From NCBI RefSeq assembly GCF_008042045.1, contig NZ_RDBP01000050.1:75698-139697 (forward strand): 64,000 nt of DNA, given 5' to 3'. The notes below the pieces were generated by a model. It worked only from the letters and a program-made list of their open reading frames with translations. It made no database searches and was not told the DNA's origin. The position numbers were made by a program, and so were the translations under genes. Shown piece after piece: positions 4,466-22,471 of this stretch (within the stretch, counting starts at the first letter, position 1; each line of letters starts with the position of its first letter). Source of the stretch: Streptomyces sp. T39. GTDB taxonomy: Bacteria; Actinomycetota; Actinomycetes; Streptomycetales; Streptomycetaceae.

Positions 4466-4630
4466 GATCGCGGGATCGGGAGAGCCGGACCAGTCCCCAC
4501 CGGCCCGGCCCCGTCGCTCGCCGTGCGCCGTGCGGGACGGTTCGGTCCGCCGCGCGGATCCGACGCGGGCGCGGGTGCGGGTCCGCGGAACGCCGGCCGC
4601 GAGGCATCCGCGGCGTATCCGTCGGCGGCT

Positions 4631-5527
4631 TCAGCGATCACCGGCCTCCCGCACTCGGACGTGGCGTGCGGCGTCGATGTAGGTCTTGGCGACGTCGGTG
4701 AGGAAGCCGCTGCTGACGGCGGGGCTGAGCGCCCGGTGCTGCAGGTGGTCATGCAGCACGCCGTAATGCTCCACGTCGGAATGCTTGTCCAGGTAGAGGT
4801 CGCTGGTGAACCGATCCACATGCACCACCGCCGCCGCGGGTCCGTCGGTGAACCGCAGGATGGAGAACTGTCCCGACATGCCGGGATGGGCACCCGCCGT
4901 GTAGGGGAGGACCTGCACCGTGATGTGCGGCTCGGTGCCCAGTGCGTGCAGGTGCTCCAGTTGTTCCCGCATGACGTCCGGGCTGCCGACGACGCGGCGC
5001 AGAGCGGATTCGTCCAGCACAGCCCACAGGCGCAGCGGACGGGTCGGATCGAAGATCCGGTGCTGGCTCCGCAGCCGCGCCTTCAGGCGACTGCCGGCCT
5101 GTTCGGCGGTGAGCAGGGGGATCGTTTCCTCGATCACCGCGAGGGCGTAGGCGGGCGTCTGCAGCAGAGAGGGGATCACCGTGGATCCGTAGGTGTGGAG
5201 GGAGGTGGCATCCGTCTCCAGGGCGAGGTAGACGCTCTGGGGGATGTCGCCGTACGCCTGCCACCAGCCCCGCTGCCCGGACTCCTGGGCCATCTCCATC
5301 AGAGCGTCGACGACCTGCTGGTCCGTCACTCCGTAGAGCGCGCACAGATCGCGGACGTCTCGCGGGCTGATGGCGCGGTTGCCGTTCTCCATGTGGCTGA
5401 TCTTGGGCTGGGAGACCATGAGCCGCTCGGCCACTTCCGTGCACTTCAGCCCGCTGTCCAGGCGGAGCCTGCGGAGTTCGGCTCCCAGACGGCGCCTCCT
5501 GACGGTGGGGTTGGTGTGTCCTGCCAC
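4631..5527 (-). CDS. XRE-family regulator with DUF5753 domain
   Basis: A 298-residue DNA-binding protein of the large Streptomyces HTH-DUF5753 group. An XRE helix-turn-helix is at about residues 13-70 (LGAELRRLRLDSGL, VAERLMVSQPKISHMENG). DUF5753 follows from about 100 to 275, recognisable by YEA-type segments such as VIPSLLQTPAYALAVIEE and HITVQVLPYTAGAHPGMSG. The GTG start at 5527 has GGAGG ten bases upstream. These genes often sit beside a short DUF397 gene as a sensor or anti-sigma-like pair; I looked for one on both sides and did not find it, so this copy seems unpaired. Target genes are unknown. It converges with the ligase gene and is divergent from a secreted protein gene 490 bp away. 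Confidence 0.87.
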   Translation of the reverse strand: MAGHTNPTVRRRRLGAELRRLRLDSGLKCTEVAERLMVSQPKISHMENGNRAISPRDVRDLCALYGVTDQQVVDALMEMAQESGQRGWWQAYGDIPQSVYLALETDATSLHTYGSTVIPSLLQTPAYALAVIEETIPLLTAEQAGSRLKARLRSQHRIFDPTRPLRLWAVLDESALRRVVGSPDVMREQLEHLHALGTEPHITVQVLPYTAGAHPGMSGQFSILRFTDGPAAAVVHVDRFTSDLYLDKHSDVEHYGVLHDHLQHRALSPAVSSGFLTDVAKTYIDAARHVRVREAGDR

Positions 5528-11698: not shown

Positions 11699-12367
11699 TC
11701 AGGAGCTGCGCGGGGTGACCAGGCCCGATTCGTAGGCGAGGACCACGAGCTGGGCACGGTCGCGGACGCGGAGCTTGGTCATGGCCCGGTTGACGTGGGT
11801 CTTGGCCGTCAGCGGGCTGATCACCATGCGGTTCGCGATCTCGTCGTTGGACAGGCCGTGCGCGACCAGAGCCACGGCCTCGCGTTCACGCCCCGTCAGC
11901 TCCTCCAGCCCGCTGCCCGTGCCGGTGGCGGTGGGGAGTGGCTGGGTGACGTAGCGGTCGATCAGCTTGCGGGTGATGGACGGTGCGAGAAGGGCGTCTC
12001 CCCGCGCGGCAACGCGTACGGCGTGCAGGAAGTCCTCCGGCAGGATGTCCTTGACGAGGAACCCTGCGGCTCCCGCGCGCAGCGCGTCCAGGACGTATTC
12101 GTCCAGGCCGTAGTTGGTCAGGATGACGACGTGCAGTCCGGCCAGGGCGGGATCGGCGGCGATGCGCCGGGTCGTCTCGATGCCGTCCATGACCGGCATC
12201 TGGATGTCGACCAGCGCGATGTCGGGCAGGTGCTCCTTCGCGAGCCGCAGGGCCTGCTGCCCGTCGGCAGCCTCGGCGACCACGTCGATGTCGTCCTCGA
12301 GGTCGAGGAGCGCGCGGAATCCGCTGCGGATGAGCGGCTGGTCGTCGACCAGCAGGACACGGATCAC
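11699..12367 (-). CDS. NarL/LuxR-family response regulator
   Basis: A 222-residue response regulator. The receiver domain (about 1-120) shows the acidic pair Asp8-Asp9 in VLLVDDQ, the phospho-acceptor Asp54 in ALVDIQMP, and Lys in GFLVKDI. After a short linker a LuxR-type HTH occupies about 150-210 ([20 protein letters not shown], then [16 protein letters not shown]). It should bind DNA as a dimer when phosphorylated by the adjacent histidine kinase. Its ATG overlaps the kinase stop by four bases (ATGA), so the two are translationally coupled. Targets are unknown; the divergent DUF6223 gene beyond the kinase is a plausible one by position. Confidence 0.93.
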
Positions 12368-13491
12368 GAGGCTCGTTCCAGGGGGAGTTCAGCCTGGACG
12401 GTGAAGCCACCCTCGCGGCGTGGTTCCGCCCGCATACGGCCGCCGAGGGCGGTGACGCGTTCACGCATCCCGAGCAGCCCGACCCCGGGCACCGGGGCTG
12501 CGGCCCGGGTGGCCATGCCGTCGTCGTCGATGCGTACCGCGAGGGCGTCCGGGCGGCAGTCGATCCGGACCGACGCCGAACGGGCACCCGCATGACGGGA
12601 GACATTCGTCAGCGACTCCTGAACGATCCGGTAGACGGTCCGCCCCACCGTCACCGGCACATCCCGCCGTTGCCCCTCGATCGCCAGCGTCGCGTCCAGG
12701 CCGAAGCTGCGGGCCCCTGCCACGAGCTCCGGAACGTGGTCGAGCCCACGTGGCGGGGCGGTGTCGTCGTCGCGGAGCGCCTCCAGGGTCGCGCGGAGCT
12801 CCCGGGTCGCCTCCCGGCCGGCCTCCTGGATCGCCAGCAGAGCCTGCGGCACCTGTTCACCGCGCTTGCGGGACACGTGGACGGCGACCTCGGACTGCAC
12901 CTTGATGACCGAGATCTGGTGGGTCAGCGAATCGTGCAGTTCCCGCGCGATGCGCAGCCGCTCCTCGTCGGCGCGGCGCCGCGCCGTCGCCTCCCGCGTG
13001 CGCTCGGCCTCGTCCGCCCGCCGCTCGGCCTGCCGCAGAGCCTCGCCCGCCGACCCGGCCGCGATCAGCCAGGCGATCTCGAGGGCGCTGCGGGCCTGCG
13101 CGAACGCCTCACCGGTGTCGTGCAGGCCCGAGGCCAGGGCGGCCAGGGGCAAGGCCGCCAGCACCGCCACGCTCATGGCCACGGTGACGACGCGGTGTCC
13201 CTCCCGCATGGCCGCGTACACCGCGAACAGGAACGCGACCGCGGCCACGTCGAAACCCGCTGCCTGGTACCCCACCGCGCACATCCCGGTGACGGCGAGG
13301 GTGGCGACCGGAGACCGCCGCCCGCCGGCCAGTGCCAGGCCCCCCACCACCAGCAACACGCAGCCGAACAGGTCGATGCCAGTGCCGGAAGGGTGCCCGG
13401 ACAGCCCGGTGACCAGCAGCGCTCCCGCCACACCGACGGCGATCAGCCAGTCGCGTGCACGGGGCCCGACGCGGAACCGTCCATTGCTCAT
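12364..13491 (-). CDS. NarL-type sensor histidine kinase
   Basis: A 375-residue membrane histidine kinase of the HisKA_3 class. The N-terminal 150 residues hold about four to five hydrophobic helices with almost no extracytoplasmic domain (DWLIAVGVAGALLVTGLSG, VAAVAFLFAVYAAM, VAMSVAVLAALPLAAL), suggesting sensing within the membrane. A charged coiled stretch rich in Arg/Glu leads to the H-box IARELHDSLTHQIS with phospho-acceptor His186. The N-box region VYRIVQESLTNVSRHAGA and G-box GVGLLGMRERVTALGG complete the ATPase domain. ATG at 13491 starts just before the first helix; an upstream extension is Arg-rich and unlikely. It is coupled to the response regulator by a four-base overlap. Confidence 0.92.
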   Translation of the reverse strand: MSNGRFRVGPRARDWLIAVGVAGALLVTGLSGHPSGTGIDLFGCVLLVVGGLALAGGRRSPVATLAVTGMCAVGYQAAGFDVAAVAFLFAVYAAMREGHRVVTVAMSVAVLAALPLAALASGLHDTGEAFAQARSALEIAWLIAAGSAGEALRQAERRADEAERTREATARRRADEERLRIARELHDSLTHQISVIKVQSEVAVHVSRKRGEQVPQALLAIQEAGREATRELRATLEALRDDDTAPPRGLDHVPELVAGARSFGLDATLAIEGQRRDVPVTVGRTVYRIVQESLTNVSRHAGARSASVRIDCRPDALAVRIDDDGMATRAAAPVPGVGLLGMRERVTALGGRMRAEPRREGGFTVQAELPLERAS

Positions 13492-13689
13492 GCGCGCACC
13501 GTAACCGGAAGCTGCCCGCGGGCGAATCCCGCTCACGCACGAGTGCCCGGCTACCGCACGCGCAGTACCTCTGCGGCGTCTGCCGCGTCGGCGGTAGCGC
13601 GAAATGCCTCCGCTCGCCGGACGACCCGCCGCGGGCCCGACAGACATGCTCGCACCATGTCCAGTCATGGGAAGAGAAGGAACACCTCG

Positions 13690-14550: not shown

Positions 14551-15384
14551 ATGACTTCCCGGCCCTTGACGCTCATGGCAGTACACGCCCACCCCGACGA
14601 TGAGGCCACCGGAACCGGAGGGGTCCTCGCGCGGTACGCGGCGGAAGGCATCCGCACGGTTCTCGTGACGTGTACCGACGGCGGTTGCGGTGACGGGCCG
14701 GGGGGCGTCAAGCCCGGCGATCCGGGGCACGATCCGGCGGCCGTCGCCCTGATGCGGCGTCAGGAGCTGGAGGCGAGCCGTGACGTCCTGAAGATCAGCG
14801 ATCTGGAGACGCTGGACTACGGCGACTCCGGGATGATGGGCTGGCCGAGCAACGACGCCCCCGGATCCTTCTGGCAGACCCCGGTGGCGGAGGGCGCGGC
14901 CCGGCTCGCGGAACTCATGCGGCACTACCGGCCCGATGTGGTCGTGACCTACGACGAGAACGGCTTCTACGGCCATCCCGATCACATCCAGGCCCACCGC
15001 ATCACGATGGCGGCGCTGGAGATGACCGCGCTCGCTCCGAAGGTGTACTGGACCACGATGCCCCGCTCGGGGATGCGGCGGTTCGGGGAGATCATGCGCG
15101 AGTTTCATCCGGACATGCCGGAACCGGATCCTGCCGAGGCGGCCGCCATGGCCGAGATCGGCCTCCCCGACGACGAGATCACCACGTGGGTGGACACCAC
15201 CGCGTTCAGCGGTCAGAAGTTCGACGCGCTGGCCGCACACGCCAGTCAGGGCGAGAACATCTTCTTCCTCAGGATGGGCAGGGAGAGGTTCGGCGAGCTG
15301 ATGGGGACGGAGACCTTCGTACGTGTCCGGGACACCACCGGCGCGGCCGTACCCGAGAACGATCTCTTCGCCGGACTGCGCTGA
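14551..15384 (+). CDS. PIG-L family deacetylase (MshB/Mca-like)
   Basis: A 277-residue LmbE/PIG-L metal-dependent deacetylase. Zinc-binding motifs are AHPDDE at residues 13-18 (His14, Asp17) and GHPDHIQAH at 142-150 with the third histidine His146. Acidic TYDENG (134-139) precedes it as in mycothiol S-conjugate amidase and MshB. It hydrolyses N-acyl groups from sugar-linked substrates; in actinomycetes the close relatives act on mycothiol conjugates or GlcNAc-inositol. The C-terminal half (ITTWVDTTAFSGQKFDALAAHASQ, given here as ITTWVDTTAFSG and KFDALAAHASQ) is typical of Mca-like members. ATG 14551 follows GCAGGAGG by seven to eight bases. I cannot separate Mca from general PIG-L deacetylase without alignment. 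Confidence 0.88.
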   Translation: MTSRPLTLMAVHAHPDDEATGTGGVLARYAAEGIRTVLVTCTDGGCGDGPGGVKPGDPGHDPAAVALMRRQELEASRDVLKISDLETLDYGDSGMMGWPSNDAPGSFWQTPVAEGAARLAELMRHYRPDVVVTYDENGFYGHPDHIQAHRITMAALEMTALAPKVYWTTMPRSGMRRFGEIMREFHPDMPEPDPAEAAAMAEIGLPDDEITTWVDTTAFSGQKFDALAAHASQGENIFFLRMGRERFGELMGTETFVRVRDTTGAAVPENDLFAGLR

Positions 15385-15576: not shown

Positions 15577-15612
15577 CCGAGGCCCCGCGGGACGACTCCC
15601 GCGGGGCCTCGG
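15577..15612. terminator. Strong bidirectional hairpin terminator
   Basis: A perfect 16-bp inverted repeat (15577-15592 with 15597-15612) around a CGAC loop, almost all G/C. It lies 11 bp after the DUF5825 stop and so ends the minus-strand RiPP operon; it can also stop plus-strand transcripts. No U-run follows, as is common in Streptomyces. Confidence 0.8.
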
Positions 15613-15623
15613 CGATCGGGGGC

Positions 15624-16283
15624 TCAGATCACCAGTGGTGCCTCCGACCAGCGGCGGACCCGGTAGGGCGCCCACCACAGATGGTCGCCGAGGCGCAGGA
15701 CGAGATCCTCTGCCACCAGGTCGTCCAGGATCGGCCGCGGGATCGCGTCGGCGGGCGCGCCGTCGGTGAGGGCCGCGACGGCCTCGTGGTACTCCGGTTC
15801 GTCGATGGTGAAGCGGCGCAGCTCGCCGTAGCGCCGGTCGCGGACCTGGATGAACCCGGGGCCGTACCGGAAGATGCACTTGCAGATGTAGTACGTGGTG
15901 CGCCAGGCGAGCGCCGTCGCGACCGGGTCCTCGGTGCCGAGGACGGCGGTCGGCGGGTGGAGGTGGCCGAAGTGGCGCCAGGCGTCGGGATCCGGGCCGG
16001 TGCGGAGCTGCCAGTCGACGGAGACGGCCAGGCTGGTCAGGTCGCCCACGAAGCTCAGCGCCCTGACGGACCATGCCGCGTCGGCGGTGTCCGTCAGGTC
16101 CACGGGGCGGGGCAGGGTCACGTGCCGGGCCCCGGCGGCGAACAGCCGCCGGGCGGCCTCGCCGCCGGACATGTCGATCTCGAAGCGGCCCAGGGACATG
16201 GCGGGCAGGGTGCCCACCTCGGGGTCGTAGTCCCGTGAGGCGGTCACGGTGAAGGGGGCGGTGCCGGTGATCGCAGGAGTCAT
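15624..16283 (-). CDS. DUF5825 family protein, partner of a radical SAM C-methyltransferase
   Basis: A 219-residue protein that I assign to DUF5825 from its position and features: a start rich in strand-like segments, LPRPVDLTDTADAAWSVRAL, VDWQLRTGPDPDAW, and a conserved aromatic/cysteine segment YYICKCIFRYGPGFIQVRDRR (given as YYICKCIFRY and GPGFIQVRDR). A C-terminal segment (AIPRPILDDLVAEDLVLRLGD) resembles an output or winged-helix part. It lies 32 bp after the B12-type radical SAM gene and before the terminator, so it is the last gene of the RiPP operon. DUF5825 proteins recur next to RiPP radical SAM methyltransferases, and I recall them being needed for peptide C-methylation; I cannot verify that here. 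ATG 16283 has GCAGGAG-type context only weakly. Confidence 0.75.
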   Translation of the reverse strand: MTPAITGTAPFTVTASRDYDPEVGTLPAMSLGRFEIDMSGGEAARRLFAAGARHVTLPRPVDLTDTADAAWSVRALSFVGDLTSLAVSVDWQLRTGPDPDAWRHFGHLHPPTAVLGTEDPVATALAWRTTYYICKCIFRYGPGFIQVRDRRYGELRRFTIDEPEYHEAVAALTDGAPADAIPRPILDDLVAEDLVLRLGDHLWWAPYRVRRWSEAPLVI

Positions 16284-16315
16284 CGTCGTCCCTCGGTCGG
16301 GCGGTCGTGCGGTCG

Positions 16316-18217
16316 TCAGACGGTCGTCGGGGCGAGTTCGGCCTCGCGGGCGGCGGTGTGGCGCATGAAGTCGATCCGCAGGAACTCCTCGTTCAGGGCC
16401 GGCGGCGCGATCTGCACGAACTGTCCGCTGTCCTCGAACACGACGCCGAGCTCCCGCCACCGCTTCAGGACCCGGAGCAGGTCGGCCTCGCCGATGTGGT
16501 GGTCCGCGTCCAGCTTGCGGGCGGCCGCCTTCACGGTGTGCGGCTGGTCGAGCAGCCGGAACAGGGCCAGTTCGCACGGGTCGGTCAGTTCCAGGCGGGT
16601 CCAGTCGAAGGCCCGGCGCTTGCTGACCAGGACGATCCGGTCCTCCAGGTCGCAGTGGGTGAGGCGGCTGCCGGCGTAGTTCCGCTTCCAGTGCGCGATG
16701 CCTTCGTCGAGCCGTTGGACGACGTCCTCGCCGATGCCCCGGGGCGGTACGTCGAAGACGTACGCCAGGTCGAACATCTCGGCGTCGGGGAGGTCGTAGG
16801 TGAGGCGGTAGGGCTCGGCGGGGCGCAGCTCGGAGAAGCCGAGCCCGGGGTCGTTGAAGTACGGGCTGAACCGCTCGATCGCGATCCGGGAGGACGGGCC
16901 CACGGGCGGATTCAGGTGTTCCAGCGCGGCCAGCTGGTCCACCACGTCGTCGTAGTCCTCGGCGTCCTCGCCCGGGAAGCCGTGCAGGTAGTTCCAGGCG
17001 ACCGAGAGGCCGACGGTGGCGGCGTCACGGAGCATCCGTACGTTCTGGCCGCCGGTCACTCCCTTGTCCATCAGGGTCAGCACCCGGCTGTTGAGACTCT
17101 CGATGCCCGGCTGGACGAAGATCAGGCCCGCGTCCGCCAGGGTCTGGAGCTGTCCGCGCCGCATGTTGGACTTGATCTCGATGTGCATGCGCAGGTCGTA
17201 CCCGCTGTCGATGATGCGGGGCAGCACCGACTTCACGTACCCCATGTCCAGGATGTTGTCCACGACGTACATGTCCAGGACCCGGTGCCTGCGCGCCAGT
17301 TCCATGATCTCGTCGTAGAACACGTCGGGGCTCTTGCTGCGGAACTCCATGAACGAGCCGTTCAGTCCGCAGAAGGTGCAGTGGTGCTTCTCGCCCCACC
17401 AGCAGCCCCGCGCGCCCTCGACGACCAGTTTGGGCTCGACCCAGTTGCGGGCGTGGGACGAGGCGAGCCGCTCGAAGTACCCGGAGTAGTCCGGCGGCAG
17501 GATGGCGGCGGGCGGCAGGGGCTTGGTGTTCATGGCGTTCACGACGGAGGAGCCGTCCGTGTCGCGCCAGCACAGCCCGGGGACCTCCGACAGCGGCTCG
17601 CCGGCTTCCAGGGCCCTGATCAGGGCGGGGAACGACACCTCGCCCTCGCCGCGCAGCACGTGGTCGACGAAGGGGAAGTTGCGGTGGACGGCCTCGCCCT
17701 GTTTGCCGTCGCAGTTGGCGCCGCCCATGGCCGTCACGATGTGCGGGGCGAGCCGCTTGACGTACTTGGCGGCCGCCAGGGCGGCGGTGTTCTGCTGGAA
17801 CGTCGAGGTGAACCCGACCACGTCCGGGGCGAGTTCCACGATGCGTTCCGCGATGTGCTGGACGAAGTCGGGCGCGGTGACGTGCAGGGCCTGCGTCATC
17901 TCCATGCGGGCCCCGCGCACCCGGTTGGCCATCGCCTCGGTGAACTCGGGGACACGCCATTCGGGATCGTCGTAGAGAGCCGAGGAGAAGACCCAGTCGC
18001 CGCAGCCCAGGAAATAGGAGCCGAGTGCGTAGTAGGAGTAGTCCTCCAAAGTGAATTCCGTGTTCCTGGTGATCCAGTCCACGTATTCGATATTCGCGTG
18101 CAGAACCTCCGCTCTGCCGTTCGGTACGCGCTCGTCGACACTGCGCTTGAGAATTCCGAGAGCCAGCGACGGGAGATCGATCGGGGCCCAGGGCATGTTC
18201 ACCAGGAGTACGCGCAC
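16316..18217 (-). CDS. RiPP maturation radical SAM C-methyltransferase (B12-binding type, TIGR03975-like)
   Basis: A 633-residue enzyme with an N-terminal cobalamin-binding-like Rossmann region (about 1-215, with VVGFTSTF and GGANCDGKQGE) and a radical SAM domain. The iron-sulfur motif is C-x7-C-x2-C at Cys272, Cys280 and Cys283 within GCWWGEKHHCTFCGLNG, the exact form seen in RiPP maturation radical SAM protein 1. Later signatures are NILDMGY, IQPGIESL-like FVQPGIESLNSRVL, and WNYLHGFPGED. Such enzymes use SAM and methylcobalamin to methylate unactivated carbons of a peptide. The GTG start has AAGAGG nine bases upstream. It follows the 39-residue precursor gene after a 256-bp gap holding two hairpins, and precedes DUF5825. 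The first 70 codons have lower GC than the rest. Confidence 0.9.
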   Translation of the reverse strand: MRVLLVNMPWAPIDLPSLALGILKRSVDERVPNGRAEVLHANIEYVDWITRNTEFTLEDYSYYALGSYFLGCGDWVFSSALYDDPEWRVPEFTEAMANRVRGARMEMTQALHVTAPDFVQHIAERIVELAPDVVGFTSTFQQNTAALAAAKYVKRLAPHIVTAMGGANCDGKQGEAVHRNFPFVDHVLRGEGEVSFPALIRALEAGEPLSEVPGLCWRDTDGSSVVNAMNTKPLPPAAILPPDYSGYFERLASSHARNWVEPKLVVEGARGCWWGEKHHCTFCGLNGSFMEFRSKSPDVFYDEIMELARRHRVLDMYVVDNILDMGYVKSVLPRIIDSGYDLRMHIEIKSNMRRGQLQTLADAGLIFVQPGIESLNSRVLTLMDKGVTGGQNVRMLRDAATVGLSVAWNYLHGFPGEDAEDYDDVVDQLAALEHLNPPVGPSSRIAIERFSPYFNDPGLGFSELRPAEPYRLTYDLPDAEMFDLAYVFDVPPRGIGEDVVQRLDEGIAHWKRNYAGSRLTHCDLEDRIVLVSKRRAFDWTRLELTDPCELALFRLLDQPHTVKAAARKLDADHHIGEADLLRVLKRWRELGVVFEDSGQFVQIAPPALNEEFLRIDFMRHTAAREAELAPTTV

Positions 18218-18276
18218 GGCTCGCCTCTTCTCATGTGATCAGTGCACGGGATGACGTGTCGGTCGGGCATCGGCCG

Positions 18277-18317
18277 GGACGTCGTCAGGCGCCGGACAGG
18301 GGCGCCTGACGACGTCC
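18277..18317 (-). terminator. Second hairpin between precursor and radical SAM gene
   Basis: A perfect 17-bp inverted repeat (18277-18293 with 18301-18317) with a 7-nt loop, 59 bp upstream of the radical SAM start. It could act with the first hairpin to attenuate or protect the transcript; which of these is unknown. Confidence 0.55.
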
Positions 18318-18411
18318 GTGACGGGGCACCGGCCGGGTGGTCCGGTCCGGGAGCCGGCCGGGGTCCCGTCCGGATGGGGCCGGCCGCGCACGGTCGCGCA
18401 GCCGGACCCCG

Positions 18412-18467
18412 GGGCCTCCCGTCCGGATCGTGGCGGGCTCGCGTGTCACGATCCGGACGGGAGGCCC
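18412..18467 (-). terminator. Long hairpin directly after the precursor gene
   Basis: A perfect 21-bp inverted repeat (18412-18432 with 18447-18467) with a 14-nt loop, starting six bases after the precursor stop codon. Such a hairpin after a RiPP precursor usually lets transcription partly stop, or stabilises the precursor mRNA, so that more peptide than enzyme is made. Confidence 0.75.
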
Positions 18468-18473
18468 TGGCCG

Positions 18474-18593
18474 CTACTTGTCCTCGTCCTCCATCTCCTC
18501 CGCGGAGCGGAGGTAGACGACGACGCCGACGCCCGGCTTGCGGCTCTCCTCGTCGCCGTCGAGCGGGTCGCCGTGGATGATGTCCTTCTGCAT
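18474..18593 (-). CDS. RiPP precursor peptide (39 aa)
   Basis: A 39-residue peptide gene, too short for routine calling. It has an excellent ribosome site (AGGAGG seven to eight bases before ATG 18593), and that site is formed by the last two Arg codons of the upstream peptidase gene, whose stop is only five bases away: strong translational coupling. The peptide is very acidic at both ends (GDPLDGDEESRK and SAEEMEDEDK) around a hydrophobic block, PGVGVVVYLR at residues 20-29. That block, with its row of valines, is the likely modified core; a C-methylating radical SAM enzyme encoded just downstream could act on Val, Tyr or Leu. There is no Gly-Gly leader end. The long hairpin follows at once. 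Identity as precursor rests on context and is inference. Confidence 0.78.
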   Translation of the reverse strand: MQKDIIHGDPLDGDEESRKPGVGVVVYLRSAEEMEDEDK

Positions 18594-18598
18594 GATGT

Positions 18599-20428
18599 TC
18601 ACCTCCTCTCCGGGGGTGGGGGCGGCTCGGCCTGATCGGGCGCGGAAGGCAGCCCGCCGCCGAGAAATTCGAGGGACCGCCGTATGACGGCCAGGTGGTC
18701 GGCTCCGTCGTAGCCGTCGTGGCCCGAGTCCAGCCACATCACCTCGTGGGGCACACCGCCCGCGCGCAGCACGGCCAGGTACGCCTCGATCTGCTCCGGC
18801 GGACACTTGGCGTCCCGCCGCGCGGCGACGACCAGCAGCGGGGAGCGGATGGCGGCCGCGTACGAGGACGGGGAGGCGTGGGCGTAGGCGTCGGGCACCT
18901 CGTCCGGAGTGCCGCCGAACAGCGAGGTGTCGAGCGCCTGGAGGGCGGGCGTGGAGTGCCGGAAGGCGGTGGCGCAGTCGGCGAGCGGTTTGACGGCCAC
19001 CCCGACGTCCCACAGGTCGGGACGGGTCCCCATGGCCAGCAGCGTCAGATAGCCGCCCCACGACGTGCCGCACAGGCCCACGGCGCCCGGGCGGCCGATG
19101 CCCCGGTCCAGCAGGTCGGCCCGGGCCCGCACCAGGTCGGCGACCTGGGTGTGGCCGACGCCCTCGGAGTAGGCGGAGCGCCAGCGCGGCCCGTAGCCGG
19201 TGGAGCCCCGGTAGTTGACGCGGGCCACGGCGTGACCCGCGCCGACGAGGGCCTGCACCATGGGGTCGTAGGCGTCGCGGTCGTGGTCGGCCGGGCCGCC
19301 GTGCACGAGGAGGACCAGCGGGTGGGGTGCGGGGCGGTCCGCGGGCGTGGTGACGAAGGTGTGCACGGGGCCGTCTGGTCCCGGGGTCCACAGGTCTTGG
19401 CGGTGACCGAACCGCGGAAGACGCCACCGGCTCTGCCCGGGCAGCGACGCACCCGACAGGGACATCGCGCGGGGCACGTTCACCGCGTCGGTCCAGATGA
19501 AGTGAACGTCGCCGTCGGCGGCGGGTGACGCGGCCAGGATGCTGCCCTCGGGAGTGGGCACCGGGGTCAGCTCGCCGCGGTCCAGGTCGGCGGTGAACAG
19601 CCTGCTGCGGCCGTGCCGGTCCTGCCGCAGCAGGACCCGCGCACTCCCCGGGCCGGGGTACCAACGGGCGGTCGTCTCGGTGTCGAAGGAGCACCAGGGC
19701 AGCAGCTCCAGTCCGCCGCCGGGGGCCCAGACACCCAGGTGGTAGCGGCCGGCCCGCTCGCGCATGACCAGCAGCAGCGTGCGGCCGGACGTGCCTGCGG
19801 GACCGGAAGGCGATGTGAGCGCGGGCGCGAAACCGAGCGCCCAGGTGCGTTCCGCGGTGCCGGAGAGCACCGCGGCGGTGGTCCCGTCCGGGGTCACCAG
19901 CGTCACGGCACGGGCGGAGTGGGCGGGGCCGGACACCGCCAGCAGTCCGCCGTCCGGCGCCAGATCGCACAGGGTGGCGGAGTCCGTCGTGCGCAGGACG
20001 GGTGCAGCCCTGCCGCCGCGCCGCCCCAGGTGCACGCTGAACCCCTCGGCGCCGCGGATACCGACGGCCACCGTGCCGCGTTCCGTCAGGGCGAGCCCGG
20101 CGGGCCGTCCGGACGGCACCCCGGCCAGCGCCGGACGGTCCGGGCCGCCGTCGAAGTCCTGGGTGCGCCAGCCTCCGCTGCCGCCGCGGTCCTCGTCGAA
20201 CCACCACACGGCCTCGTCGCGGTCGATGGCGCACAGCAGTGTGCCGTGCGGACGGTCCGTCAACTGCCGTGTGCTGCCGCTGGACCGGTCCCAGGTGAAG
20301 ATCTCGCACCGGCCGTCGGCGTCCCCCGTGTACACCATCCGGTCCGGGTTGCGGGGGCTGGTCACCGGCAGCACCGGGCGGTAGACGCCGTAGGTGCGTG
20401 CGGCCGTCTTCGGGGAGGACGGTGTCAC
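18599..20428 (-). CDS. S9 family (prolyl oligopeptidase-type) peptidase
   Basis: A 609-residue serine peptidase with an N-terminal beta-propeller-like half (repeated WD-like strands such as RMVYTGDADGRCEIFTWD) and a C-terminal alpha/beta hydrolase domain. The nucleophile is Ser456 in GTSWGGY; the acid is near Asp539 (VVAARRDAKCPPEQ) and the base near His570 (DSGHDGY). The oxyanion region is LLVHGGPADHD. S9 enzymes cut short peptides that fit through the propeller, which suits trimming a 39-residue RiPP or removing its leader. GTG 20428 overlaps the MFS stop by four bases (GTGA). The last residues ERR overlap the precursor's ribosome site. No signal peptide, so cytoplasmic. Confidence 0.88.
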   Translation of the reverse strand: MTPSSPKTAARTYGVYRPVLPVTSPRNPDRMVYTGDADGRCEIFTWDRSSGSTRQLTDRPHGTLLCAIDRDEAVWWFDEDRGGSGGWRTQDFDGGPDRPALAGVPSGRPAGLALTERGTVAVGIRGAEGFSVHLGRRGGRAAPVLRTTDSATLCDLAPDGGLLAVSGPAHSARAVTLVTPDGTTAAVLSGTAERTWALGFAPALTSPSGPAGTSGRTLLLVMRERAGRYHLGVWAPGGGLELLPWCSFDTETTARWYPGPGSARVLLRQDRHGRSRLFTADLDRGELTPVPTPEGSILAASPAADGDVHFIWTDAVNVPRAMSLSGASLPGQSRWRLPRFGHRQDLWTPGPDGPVHTFVTTPADRPAPHPLVLLVHGGPADHDRDAYDPMVQALVGAGHAVARVNYRGSTGYGPRWRSAYSEGVGHTQVADLVRARADLLDRGIGRPGAVGLCGTSWGGYLTLLAMGTRPDLWDVGVAVKPLADCATAFRHSTPALQALDTSLFGGTPDEVPDAYAHASPSSYAAAIRSPLLVVAARRDAKCPPEQIEAYLAVLRAGGVPHEVMWLDSGHDGYDGADHLAVIRRSLEFLGGGLPSAPDQAEPPPPPERR

Positions 20429-21699
20429 GGCGCCTCCCGGACGACGAGAGCGGACCTGGCCGTCGCGTACAGGGCCAGCACGGCGAACGCTCCCGCGCAG
20501 GCCAACGCCACCGTGCGGCCTCCGTACGCCGCCACCAGGACCCCTGCCATCACCGGGGCGAGCACGGCGACGCCCTGGCCGGCGGTGCCCAGCACCGTCC
20601 CCATCCGGGCCAGCAGACGGTCGGGGGTCACCAGCACCGCCCGGGTCTGGAGCACGACCGCCACCGACGGCACGATCAGCGACACCGCGCTCAGCAGCAG
20701 CCCGTAGGCCCAGGTCTGGGACGCGAGAGCGAGGCCGGCCGCCGTGGGCACCATCGCCCACGAGGCGCCCGTGACGATCCGGGTGGCCGGCACCCGCCGC
20801 ACCAGCCACGGCGCGGCGAGCGCGCCCAGCAGTCCGCCGACGCCCGCGAGGGTGAGGATGAGACCGATCGAGGAGGGGCTGGCGCCCTCGGCGTGCGACG
20901 CGAAGACCGCGTGGAAGTACAGCGCTCCCAGCAGTGCGTTGATCCCGGCGGTCCACACGACCACGAAGCGCAGGAAGGGCTCGGCCCACACGAAGCGCAG
21001 GCCTTCGGCGAGCTCACGGGTGAAGGATGCGGCGGGACCCTCCCGTTCGGGCGTCAGGTCCGCGCGGATCGCCCTGCTCAACACGGCCACCAGAAGGAAC
21101 GACACCGCGTCCGCGAGCAGGGGGACCCACCGCGCCATCTGGTAGAGCACACCGCCCAGCGTCGGCCCGAAGATCTGCACCGCCTGGTCCCGCGCCTGGA
21201 GGTACCCGATCGCCCGGGGGTACTCCTCGGGAGGCACGAGCCGCCGGATCGTCCCGGAGGCGGCGGCTCCGTAGGTGGCGCTGGCCGCCTGCTCGATGAC
21301 GGCCGCGACGAGTACGTGGACGAGGACGACATGGCCGAGTGCCACGGTCACGAACACCGACCCCGTGGCGCCCGCGGCGACGAGGGCCGCCGTGTACATC
21401 ATCGGCTTGCGCGGCAGCCGGTCGGCGAACACCCCCGCGATCGGCGAGACGACGAGCCCGCCTGCCAGTGCCACCGTGGCGACGAGGCCGGCGAGCCCGG
21501 ACGAGAATCCGGCGCCCAGCAGGATCAGCGGGAGGAAGAGGGAGGACGCGCAGGTCCCCAGACCGTCGACGGCGCCCGCCGCCCAGAAGAGCGAGAAATC
21601 CCGCCTCCGGAAAGGGGACGGAGGCGAGCCTTTCGGTAATCGCTCGTCTTCTGCTAATTCAGGGCCGGACGATGCCGATTTCCCCTCGGCCTCGCCCAT
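20425..21699 (-). CDS. MFS transporter, first gene of the RiPP operon
   Basis: A 424-residue 12-helix transporter of the MFS drug/macrolide-efflux type (motif ADRLPRKPMM after helix 2; PSIAVVL-like helices late). It probably exports the modified peptide. ATG 21699 begins a 30-residue acidic cytoplasmic tail before the first helix (FSLFWAAGAVDGLGTCASSL). Two leucines in that tail, Leu15 (21655-21657) and Leu21 (21637-21639), use TTA, the rare codon read only by the bldA tRNA in Streptomyces. The N-terminal codons are also less GC-rich than the rest. Because the downstream peptidase and precursor genes are translationally linked to it, the whole operon may be under bldA control. It is followed by the S9 gene with a 4-bp overlap. 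Confidence 0.87.
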   Translation of the reverse strand: MGEAEGKSASSGPELAEDERLPKGSPPSPFRRRDFSLFWAAGAVDGLGTCASSLFLPLILLGAGFSSGLAGLVATVALAGGLVVSPIAGVFADRLPRKPMMYTAALVAAGATGSVFVTVALGHVVLVHVLVAAVIEQAASATYGAAASGTIRRLVPPEEYPRAIGYLQARDQAVQIFGPTLGGVLYQMARWVPLLADAVSFLLVAVLSRAIRADLTPEREGPAASFTRELAEGLRFVWAEPFLRFVVVWTAGINALLGALYFHAVFASHAEGASPSSIGLILTLAGVGGLLGALAAPWLVRRVPATRIVTGASWAMVPTAAGLALASQTWAYGLLLSAVSLIVPSVAVVLQTRAVLVTPDRLLARMGTVLGTAGQGVAVLAPVMAGVLVAAYGGRTVALACAGAFAVLALYATARSALVVREAP

Positions 21700-22471
21700 C
21701 AGGAATCCCGCTCGGGGAGTAATTCTGAAGCTGACGCACCCACATCGCCCCCTGCAATGAGCGGACTTACGGCCGGTGAGGGTTGCGATCGTAGCGAAGG
21801 GATTCTCGGGGCACAATACCGTCCTTGGAATGGCGTTCCCGATCAAGGAATGGCACCGCGATTGCACGGCGACGGGTTCGCGTCGGCGCCACGTCGCCTC
21901 GCCCTGTCGGAAATTCCGGAACGGGGAGAAGCGCGCAGCACGGGCTGCGGACCCGCCGTTGGCCGGCCCGGGCGGGCGAGCGCGGTCCGCGCCGCCGGGA
22001 GCGTGATCGTGCCTGGCCGGGTACCCCCGAAGCGTCGCCGCGCAGGGTTCTCCGCCCGGCCCCTGCGGCCGCCGCGGGCGCGGCTGCGCGCGCCACGGAG
22101 TACCGGAGTCCCCTTCCGTTTGTCCGCCGGGTACCGGTCGGCGGGGCGGAGCGGACGGGGTAAGGGCCGGGGCGGACGCGGCCCGCCCCGGTCGGGTCGG
22201 CCCCACCCCGGGCCCTGCCGCACGGCGACCACGCCGGGGGGACCCGTCCGGCCGGCGCCGCCGGTGCGGCCGGCTCGGGCGATCCCGGTGCTGCCGGCCG
22301 CTCGTGAGGCTTCGCCGGCACAGAATTTCCGCGACGGGCCGGCGGCCGCGGTCACCGCGTACGCGCGGGAGCAGGGACTGCCGGCACCGAGGACACCGTC
22401 GGCGACGGGCCGAAGGGGCGGGCGGAGTCGTTCCGCCCGCCCCGAAAGCCGTACCCGCCCGGGATGCGGTG
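21700..22471. other. Long gene-free region upstream of RiPP operon
   Basis: These 772 bp between the RiPP operon and the FG-GAP gene give no credible protein on either strand. The part at 21700-21870 is clearly less GC-rich than the surroundings and should contain the operon promoter; it includes short inverted repeats (for example GGAA-5-TTCC around 21825, and CCTTG with CAAGG). The rest is very GC-rich. A terminator hairpin lies at 22415-22443. Confidence 0.5.
22415..22443 (-). terminator. Hairpin terminator of the FG-GAP protein gene
   Basis: A perfect 12-bp G/C stem (22415-22426 with 22432-22443) and a 5-nt loop, 28 bp beyond the stop codon of the minus-strand FG-GAP gene. Confidence 0.7.

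Follow-up and report, generated by a model that had tools for sequence, protein, structure and literature searches.

A predicted clavusporin-type RiPP operon from an apparently uncharacterised sister clade in Streptomyces

The clavusporins, which the title of the work cited for them presents as peptide surfactants promoting bacterial development, belong to the closest described kind of system for the locus analysed here. In PMC12257519, a homologous pair of a B12-dependent radical SAM enzyme (rSAM) and a DUF5825 protein is described as C-methylating amino acids in clavusporin biosynthesis, and PMC12951456 describes removal of the clavusporin leader by the prolyl oligopeptidase MpcP. These papers bear out the link to clavusporins that the first-pass annotation had made. 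A search of the literature on TIGR03975, DUF5825 and C-methylated surfactant RiPPs found nothing closer than the clavusporins. We analysed a stretch of 64,000 nucleotides from Streptomyces sp. T39 (hereafter the window) and consider it highly likely that it carries a clavusporin-type RiPP operon that works as proposed below.

Gene content and extent of the operon

All elements of the unit named by the first-pass annotation (i.e. MFS, S9 peptidase, 39-residue precursor, two hairpins, radical SAM, DUF5825 and a 16-bp repeat) are present, and the five genes (MFS, S9 peptidase, precursor, rSAM and DUF5825) all lie on the minus strand. In the order of transcription, the features are:

21811..21816, minus strand: candidate -35 element TTGTGC, inferred from consensus (TTGTG in 8 of 8 aligned relatives)
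21788..21793, minus strand: candidate -10 element TACGAT, in the conserved block TTCGNTACG(A/C)TC
20425..21699, minus strand: MFS exporter, 424 aa (PF07690, 8e-30; TIGR00900, 9e-44)
18599..20428, minus strand: S9 prolyl-oligopeptidase-family protease, 609 aa (PF00326, 1e-31)
18474..18593, minus strand: RiPP precursor, 39 aa, MQKDIIHGDPLDGDEESRKPGVGVVVYLRSAEEMEDEDK
18507..18533, minus strand: predicted core G21-R29 (GVGVVVYLR), as delimited by the conserved KP and R
18409..18470, minus strand: stem-loop 1, immediately downstream of the precursor stop codon (arms 18409-18432/18447-18470, 24 bp, 96% complementary)
18277..18317, minus strand: stem-loop 2, before the rSAM gene (arms 18277-18293/18301-18317, 17 bp, 100%)
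16316..18217, minus strand: B12-binding radical SAM protein, 633 aa, predicted peptide C-methyltransferase (TIGR03975, 6.5e-178)
15624..16283, minus strand: DUF5825 protein, 219 aa, rSAM partner (PF19142, 2.4e-73, 246 bits)
15648..15896, minus strand: C-terminal winged-helix domain of DUF5825, resembling an RRE (AlphaFold2; suggestive only)
15577..15612, minus strand: 3' inverted repeat after the operon (arms 15577-15592/15597-15612, 16 bp, 100%, 4-nt loop)

The S9 peptidase gene overlaps the MFS stop by 4 nt (GTGA) and the ribosome site of the precursor (AGGAGG) overlaps the peptidase stop codon, which suggests that the genes are read as one transcription unit. Gene order and strand are constant in all 70 loci that have all five genes. 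DNA similarity to nine close relatives runs from 15593-15624 to 21620-22132, with most of the far ends near 21850; this extent indicates that the inherited or mobile unit comprises the operon together with a promoter region of ~150 bp beyond 21699. Within that region (21816-21788), the aligned relatives share a conserved TTGTG(C/A), a 17-nt spacer and TACGAT. The operon is single copy in the genome of the window, which contains only one DUF5825 gene. Flanking genes differ among relatives, and a developmental regulator is absent from the conserved unit. A PIG-L deacetylase-like protein (14551-15384, plus strand) and a HisKA_3 sensor kinase (12364-13668, minus strand) lie outside this unit in the window.

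The peptidase has a GTSWGG motif at residue 454, with candidate Asp and His residues plausibly placed. The rSAM protein scores 593 bits for TIGR03975 (cut-off 281.85) against 90 bits for the next-best family, also matches PF02310 and PF04055 and contains the motif C273-x7-C-x2-C (CWWGEKHHCTFC). This score and the DUF5825 gene support the first-pass reading of the locus as a RiPP operon. By sequence, the nearest solved structure to the rSAM is TokK (2e-12), a B12-dependent rSAM methyltransferase, in agreement with methyl transfer to unactivated carbons. The rSAM and DUF5825 genes are adjacent in the window, and a related rSAM also lies immediately beside DUF5825 in 21 of 21 divergent loci retrieved through DUF5825 alone; because of this constant adjacency, the two are best regarded as an obligate pair. 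The five-gene operon very probably yields a short hydrophobic peptide bearing extra C-methyl groups.

Precursor, core variant and phylogenetic position

A contig scan gave 513 rSAM relatives, and the best 80 of the 513, all from Streptomyces, were fetched. The first-pass annotation would have been refuted by the lack of a homologous precursor beside other such pairs; instead, the precursor is conserved, with homologues upstream of the rSAM gene in 77 of these 80 loci (E down to 1e-22). The contig stops short of the precursor position in L041 and L077, and masking covers the gap in L015; in L056 only the core is masked and the leader can be seen. Because of these homologues and the bounds of DNA similarity, the sequence data mark the precursor as genuine and not a chance ORF. 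A count of synonymous and non-synonymous changes over its 39 codons contains too few changes to show purifying selection alone.

The precursor consists of a conserved leader (MQKDIIHGDPLDGDEESRKP), a short core and an acidic tail. The core is beta-strand-like, with an aliphatic residue at every second position (G-V-G-V-V-V-Y-L-R), and is the same in eight window-type relatives save for V26I and L28F. A counterpart exists on plasmid pSCL4 of S. clavuligerus, which carries MFS, alpha/beta hydrolase, rSAM and DUF5825 genes in the window's order; we take this species, from its name, to be the clavusporin producer. Just before its rSAM gene lies an ORF (L088:5812-5931, MQKDVIHNDPLAGDEENRKPSVGITITVPFRNAEDADED) that is missing from the record's gene table and is 54% identical over the aligned length to the window precursor (E 1e-10), in the same place. 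The first-pass annotation had found the core unlike anything it could name, a view that no longer holds: this core is related to the S. clavuligerus type, in shortened form.

In the rSAM tree, the window groups with eight relatives (L001 and L003-L009) in one clade of nine rows with an SH-aLRT support of 100, and this clade is sister (support 92) to 31 canonical rows that include S. clavuligerus. L011, L012 and L075 make up a third clade that branches outside both. The window thus lies outside the S. clavuligerus clade, with the core GVGVVVY(L/F)R, and the MFS proteins are 81-90% identical within its own clade. The precursor groups match the rSAM tree: (i) canonical cores follow (G/S-I/V)(G-I/V)(T-I/V)(T-V/I)-P-F-R; (ii) window cores follow (G-V)(G-V)(V-V/I)-Y-L/F-R, i.e. 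one dipeptide fewer and Tyr for Pro; and (iii) third-clade cores follow (G-V)(G-I/V)(V/R-I)-R-F-R and are without Pro20, as are L034 and L037. Residues K3, D4, P10, L11 and R18 and the Arg that closes the core are invariant across the window, canonical and third-clade precursors.

The system is common in the genus: among 393 sampled Streptomyces genomes, DUF5825 is present in 91 (23%) and a recognisable precursor in 51 (about 13%), eight genomes having the window type (85-100% identity). In a phylum-wide sample of 396 genomes, four pass the DUF5825 cut-off, all of the window's genus. Streptomyces sp. CBMA291 has two loci on two contigs (L009 and L010) with equal precursors and equal identity to the window proteins, possibly a duplicated chromosome end.

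Several other short ORFs were seen near related enzymes. A second, unrelated-looking candidate precursor family, MEIKK(V/I)VVREE..RRPAILEKRPTR, sits upstream of divergent B12-rSAM/DUF5825 pairs (L097-L102, L105, L106, L109, L111, L113 and L091); L104, L108, L110 and L112 carry a longer version that ends in RDRLTI(D/E)KRP. Three loci (L045:5809-5913, L048:5742-5849 and L051:5777-5884) keep the leader start MEKDxIxNDPL with a different core (e.g. GMRLIDIPIPAVRE and GMIWINIPIGNTGD); a window-like MFS or S9 peptidase is absent from the 6 kb fetched on each side. On a Streptomyces plasmid (L090), a B12-rSAM/DUF5825 pair is preceded by two short candidate precursors in tandem, MEKTVVENDPQIDDPDSALVTVGVSVSF and MEKTVVHNNPQMENRKDVDSTVISVMVVVSF, the first ORF lying at 4566-4652 upstream of the rSAM gene.

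Proposed maturation and stem-loops

In the proposed pathway, the B12-rSAM would work together with DUF5825 as one unit, with DUF5825 probably helping to hold the leader via a winged-helix domain that resembles an RRE. The AlphaFold2 model of DUF5825 (from an alignment that left out two rows from plasmid records) combines an alpha/beta part at the N-terminus with a winged helix at the C-terminus; two models, of the whole protein and of residues 130-212 alone, reach pLDDT values of 91.7 and 92.7, respectively. With VIA-align, the top structural alignment of both is the RRE TbiB1 in complex with a lasso leader, and the N-terminal domain of ThcOx ranks second or third. These alignments have low Z values (5.0-6.0; rmsd 2.3-2.7 over 61-64 residues), and other winged helices follow close behind. 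Foldseek returned no match to the models with an E-value below 0.1, and sequence searches with DUF5825 in Pfam and among solved structures brought up no convincing relatives beyond its own family, so the RRE reading draws on the VIA-align rows and topology. On these models, leader binding by the winged-helix domain is likely.

The rSAM enzyme would then methylate unactivated side-chain carbons using methylcobalamin and SAM, most likely on the beta-branched Val residues and perhaps on Leu/Phe-28. Methylated Val would be expected to become tert-leucine; the calculated [M+H]+ of unmodified GVGVVVYLR is 961.583 (1186.731 when KP is kept), and every methyl group would add 14.016 Da. A different reaction on the window core is conceivable, i.e. 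a cross-link at Tyr27 or ring formation on Val, given that Tyr at position 27 occurs in the window clade alone, that the B12-rSAM PbsB cross-links aromatic residues (PMC12257519) and that a different rSAM class turns Val into cyclopropylglycine (PMC9062424). However, the enzyme fits the C-methyltransferase family TIGR03975 far better than the next family (593 against 90 bits), it shares 71% identity with its S. clavuligerus counterpart from the sister clade, and the core has no second conserved aromatic residue (position 28 is L or F), which together make such a reaction very improbable.

Following methylation, the S9 peptidase probably cuts the leader off after K19-P20, and the acidic tail would also be removed, perhaps after R29. 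At position 20, Val replaces the Pro expected at the protease site in the third clade (L011, L012 and L075) and in two canonical relatives (L034 and L037), all of which retain the S9 peptidase gene. Strict cleavage after Pro is thus not assured for the family, and the peptidase may not need Pro.

The MFS protein would export the peptide and, by analogy with the clavusporins, one would expect it to be hydrophobic, to have surface activity and to aid aerial growth. Exported RiPPs are often bioactive, and the conserved unit, with its variable flanks, has no developmental regulator; both points would suit a secreted antimicrobial or signal better than a surfactant that aids development. We regard this alternative as rather unlikely, since the cited title describes the closest characterised relatives as peptide surfactants promoting bacterial development and no immunity gene is visible in the unit apart from the exporter. 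A development-aiding surfactant remains our preferred reading. Gene content, homology, conservation, the stem-loop and the predicted fold of DUF5825 are direct results of the analysis; all reactions, cut sites, methylated positions and the biological role are inferred from them.

The two hairpins and the 16-bp repeat described in the first-pass annotation are all in the sequence, but conservation of position across the family holds for the first hairpin only. A strong stem begins within a few nt of the precursor stop in nearly all relatives. For each locus, the 110 nt downstream of this stop were compared with 30 dinucleotide shuffles. The stem exceeds all 30 shuffles in length in 61 of 76 loci; in control stretches of the same loci this occurs in 0 of 70 (rSAM-DUF5825 gap), 4 of 78 (after DUF5825) and 1 of 76 (inside the precursor). 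Half of the stems start at +5 to +7 after the precursor stop, these being the quartiles. The arms vary in sequence between groups yet remain complementary, with double-sided compensatory changes in 10 of 13 consensus stem pairs, and at this position the window has a 24-bp stem whose sequence is wholly different.

The most likely function of stem-loop 1 is to set how much precursor mRNA there is relative to enzyme mRNA; it would protect or end a share of the transcripts, leaving more precursor mRNA than enzyme mRNA. The stem lacks a T run and hence is not a standard intrinsic terminator, which leaves room for it being a mere by-product of G+C-rich intergenic DNA. This is hard to reconcile with the excess over shuffles and controls, the narrow range of start positions and the compensatory changes, and we give it little credence beside a role in setting the mRNA ratio.

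A stem like the second hairpin occurs only in the window and in L001/L002. Stems after every operon gene were considered and dropped in view of the control counts (0/70 and 4/78), as was the 3' inverted repeat as a family-wide terminator, a comparable stem following DUF5825 in 4 of 78 relatives. In the window itself, this repeat, also without a T run, is a possible terminator.

A broader proposal, which we advance only tentatively, joins three statements: (i) DUF5825 would be the substrate-delivery subunit, with an RRE-like domain, of a large B12-rSAM family; (ii) the window clade would make a separate C-methylated scaffold with methylated Val and possibly Tyr/Leu; and (iii) the family-wide stem-loop after the precursor stop would set precursor dosage. 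The predicted RRE-like domain suggests a role for DUF5825 that can be tested, and the conserved stem-loop likewise points to a dosage control open to testing.

Comparison with known systems

Two more distant systems share parts of the locus. The clusters with YHxYxY precursors (MNIO, B12-rSAMs and DUF5825; biphenomycin-like; PMC12257519) also have a B12-rSAM adjoining DUF5825, whereas the window is without an MNIO, a partner protein or a YHxYxY motif in its precursor. The pheganomycin-family cluster on an S. globosus plasmid (L089) likewise has a TIGR03975 rSAM (36% identical) with a short precursor upstream. In contrast to the window, it contains a peptide ligase and Dpg genes, and DUF5825, S9 peptidase and MFS are absent among the listed features of that stretch.

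The clavusporin system shares with the window the B12-rSAM and DUF5825 pair and a prolyl-oligopeptidase leader protease (MpcP there) and, going by the locus in S. clavuligerus, also the MFS gene, gene order, precursor leader and core pattern. The differences are that the window rSAM is 71% identical to that of S. clavuligerus and falls in a separate, fully supported clade, and that its core, compared with the S. clavuligerus type (e.g. SVGITITVPFR), is one dipeptide shorter with Y-L/F-R in place of P-F-R. The clavusporin kind is thus already described, and the window adds a member from an apparently uncharacterised sister clade. Clavusporin-type peptides thereby gain a second clade, whose naturally occurring core variant (shorter, Tyr for Pro) offers a comparison for which residues the B12-rSAM/DUF5825 pair can methylate.
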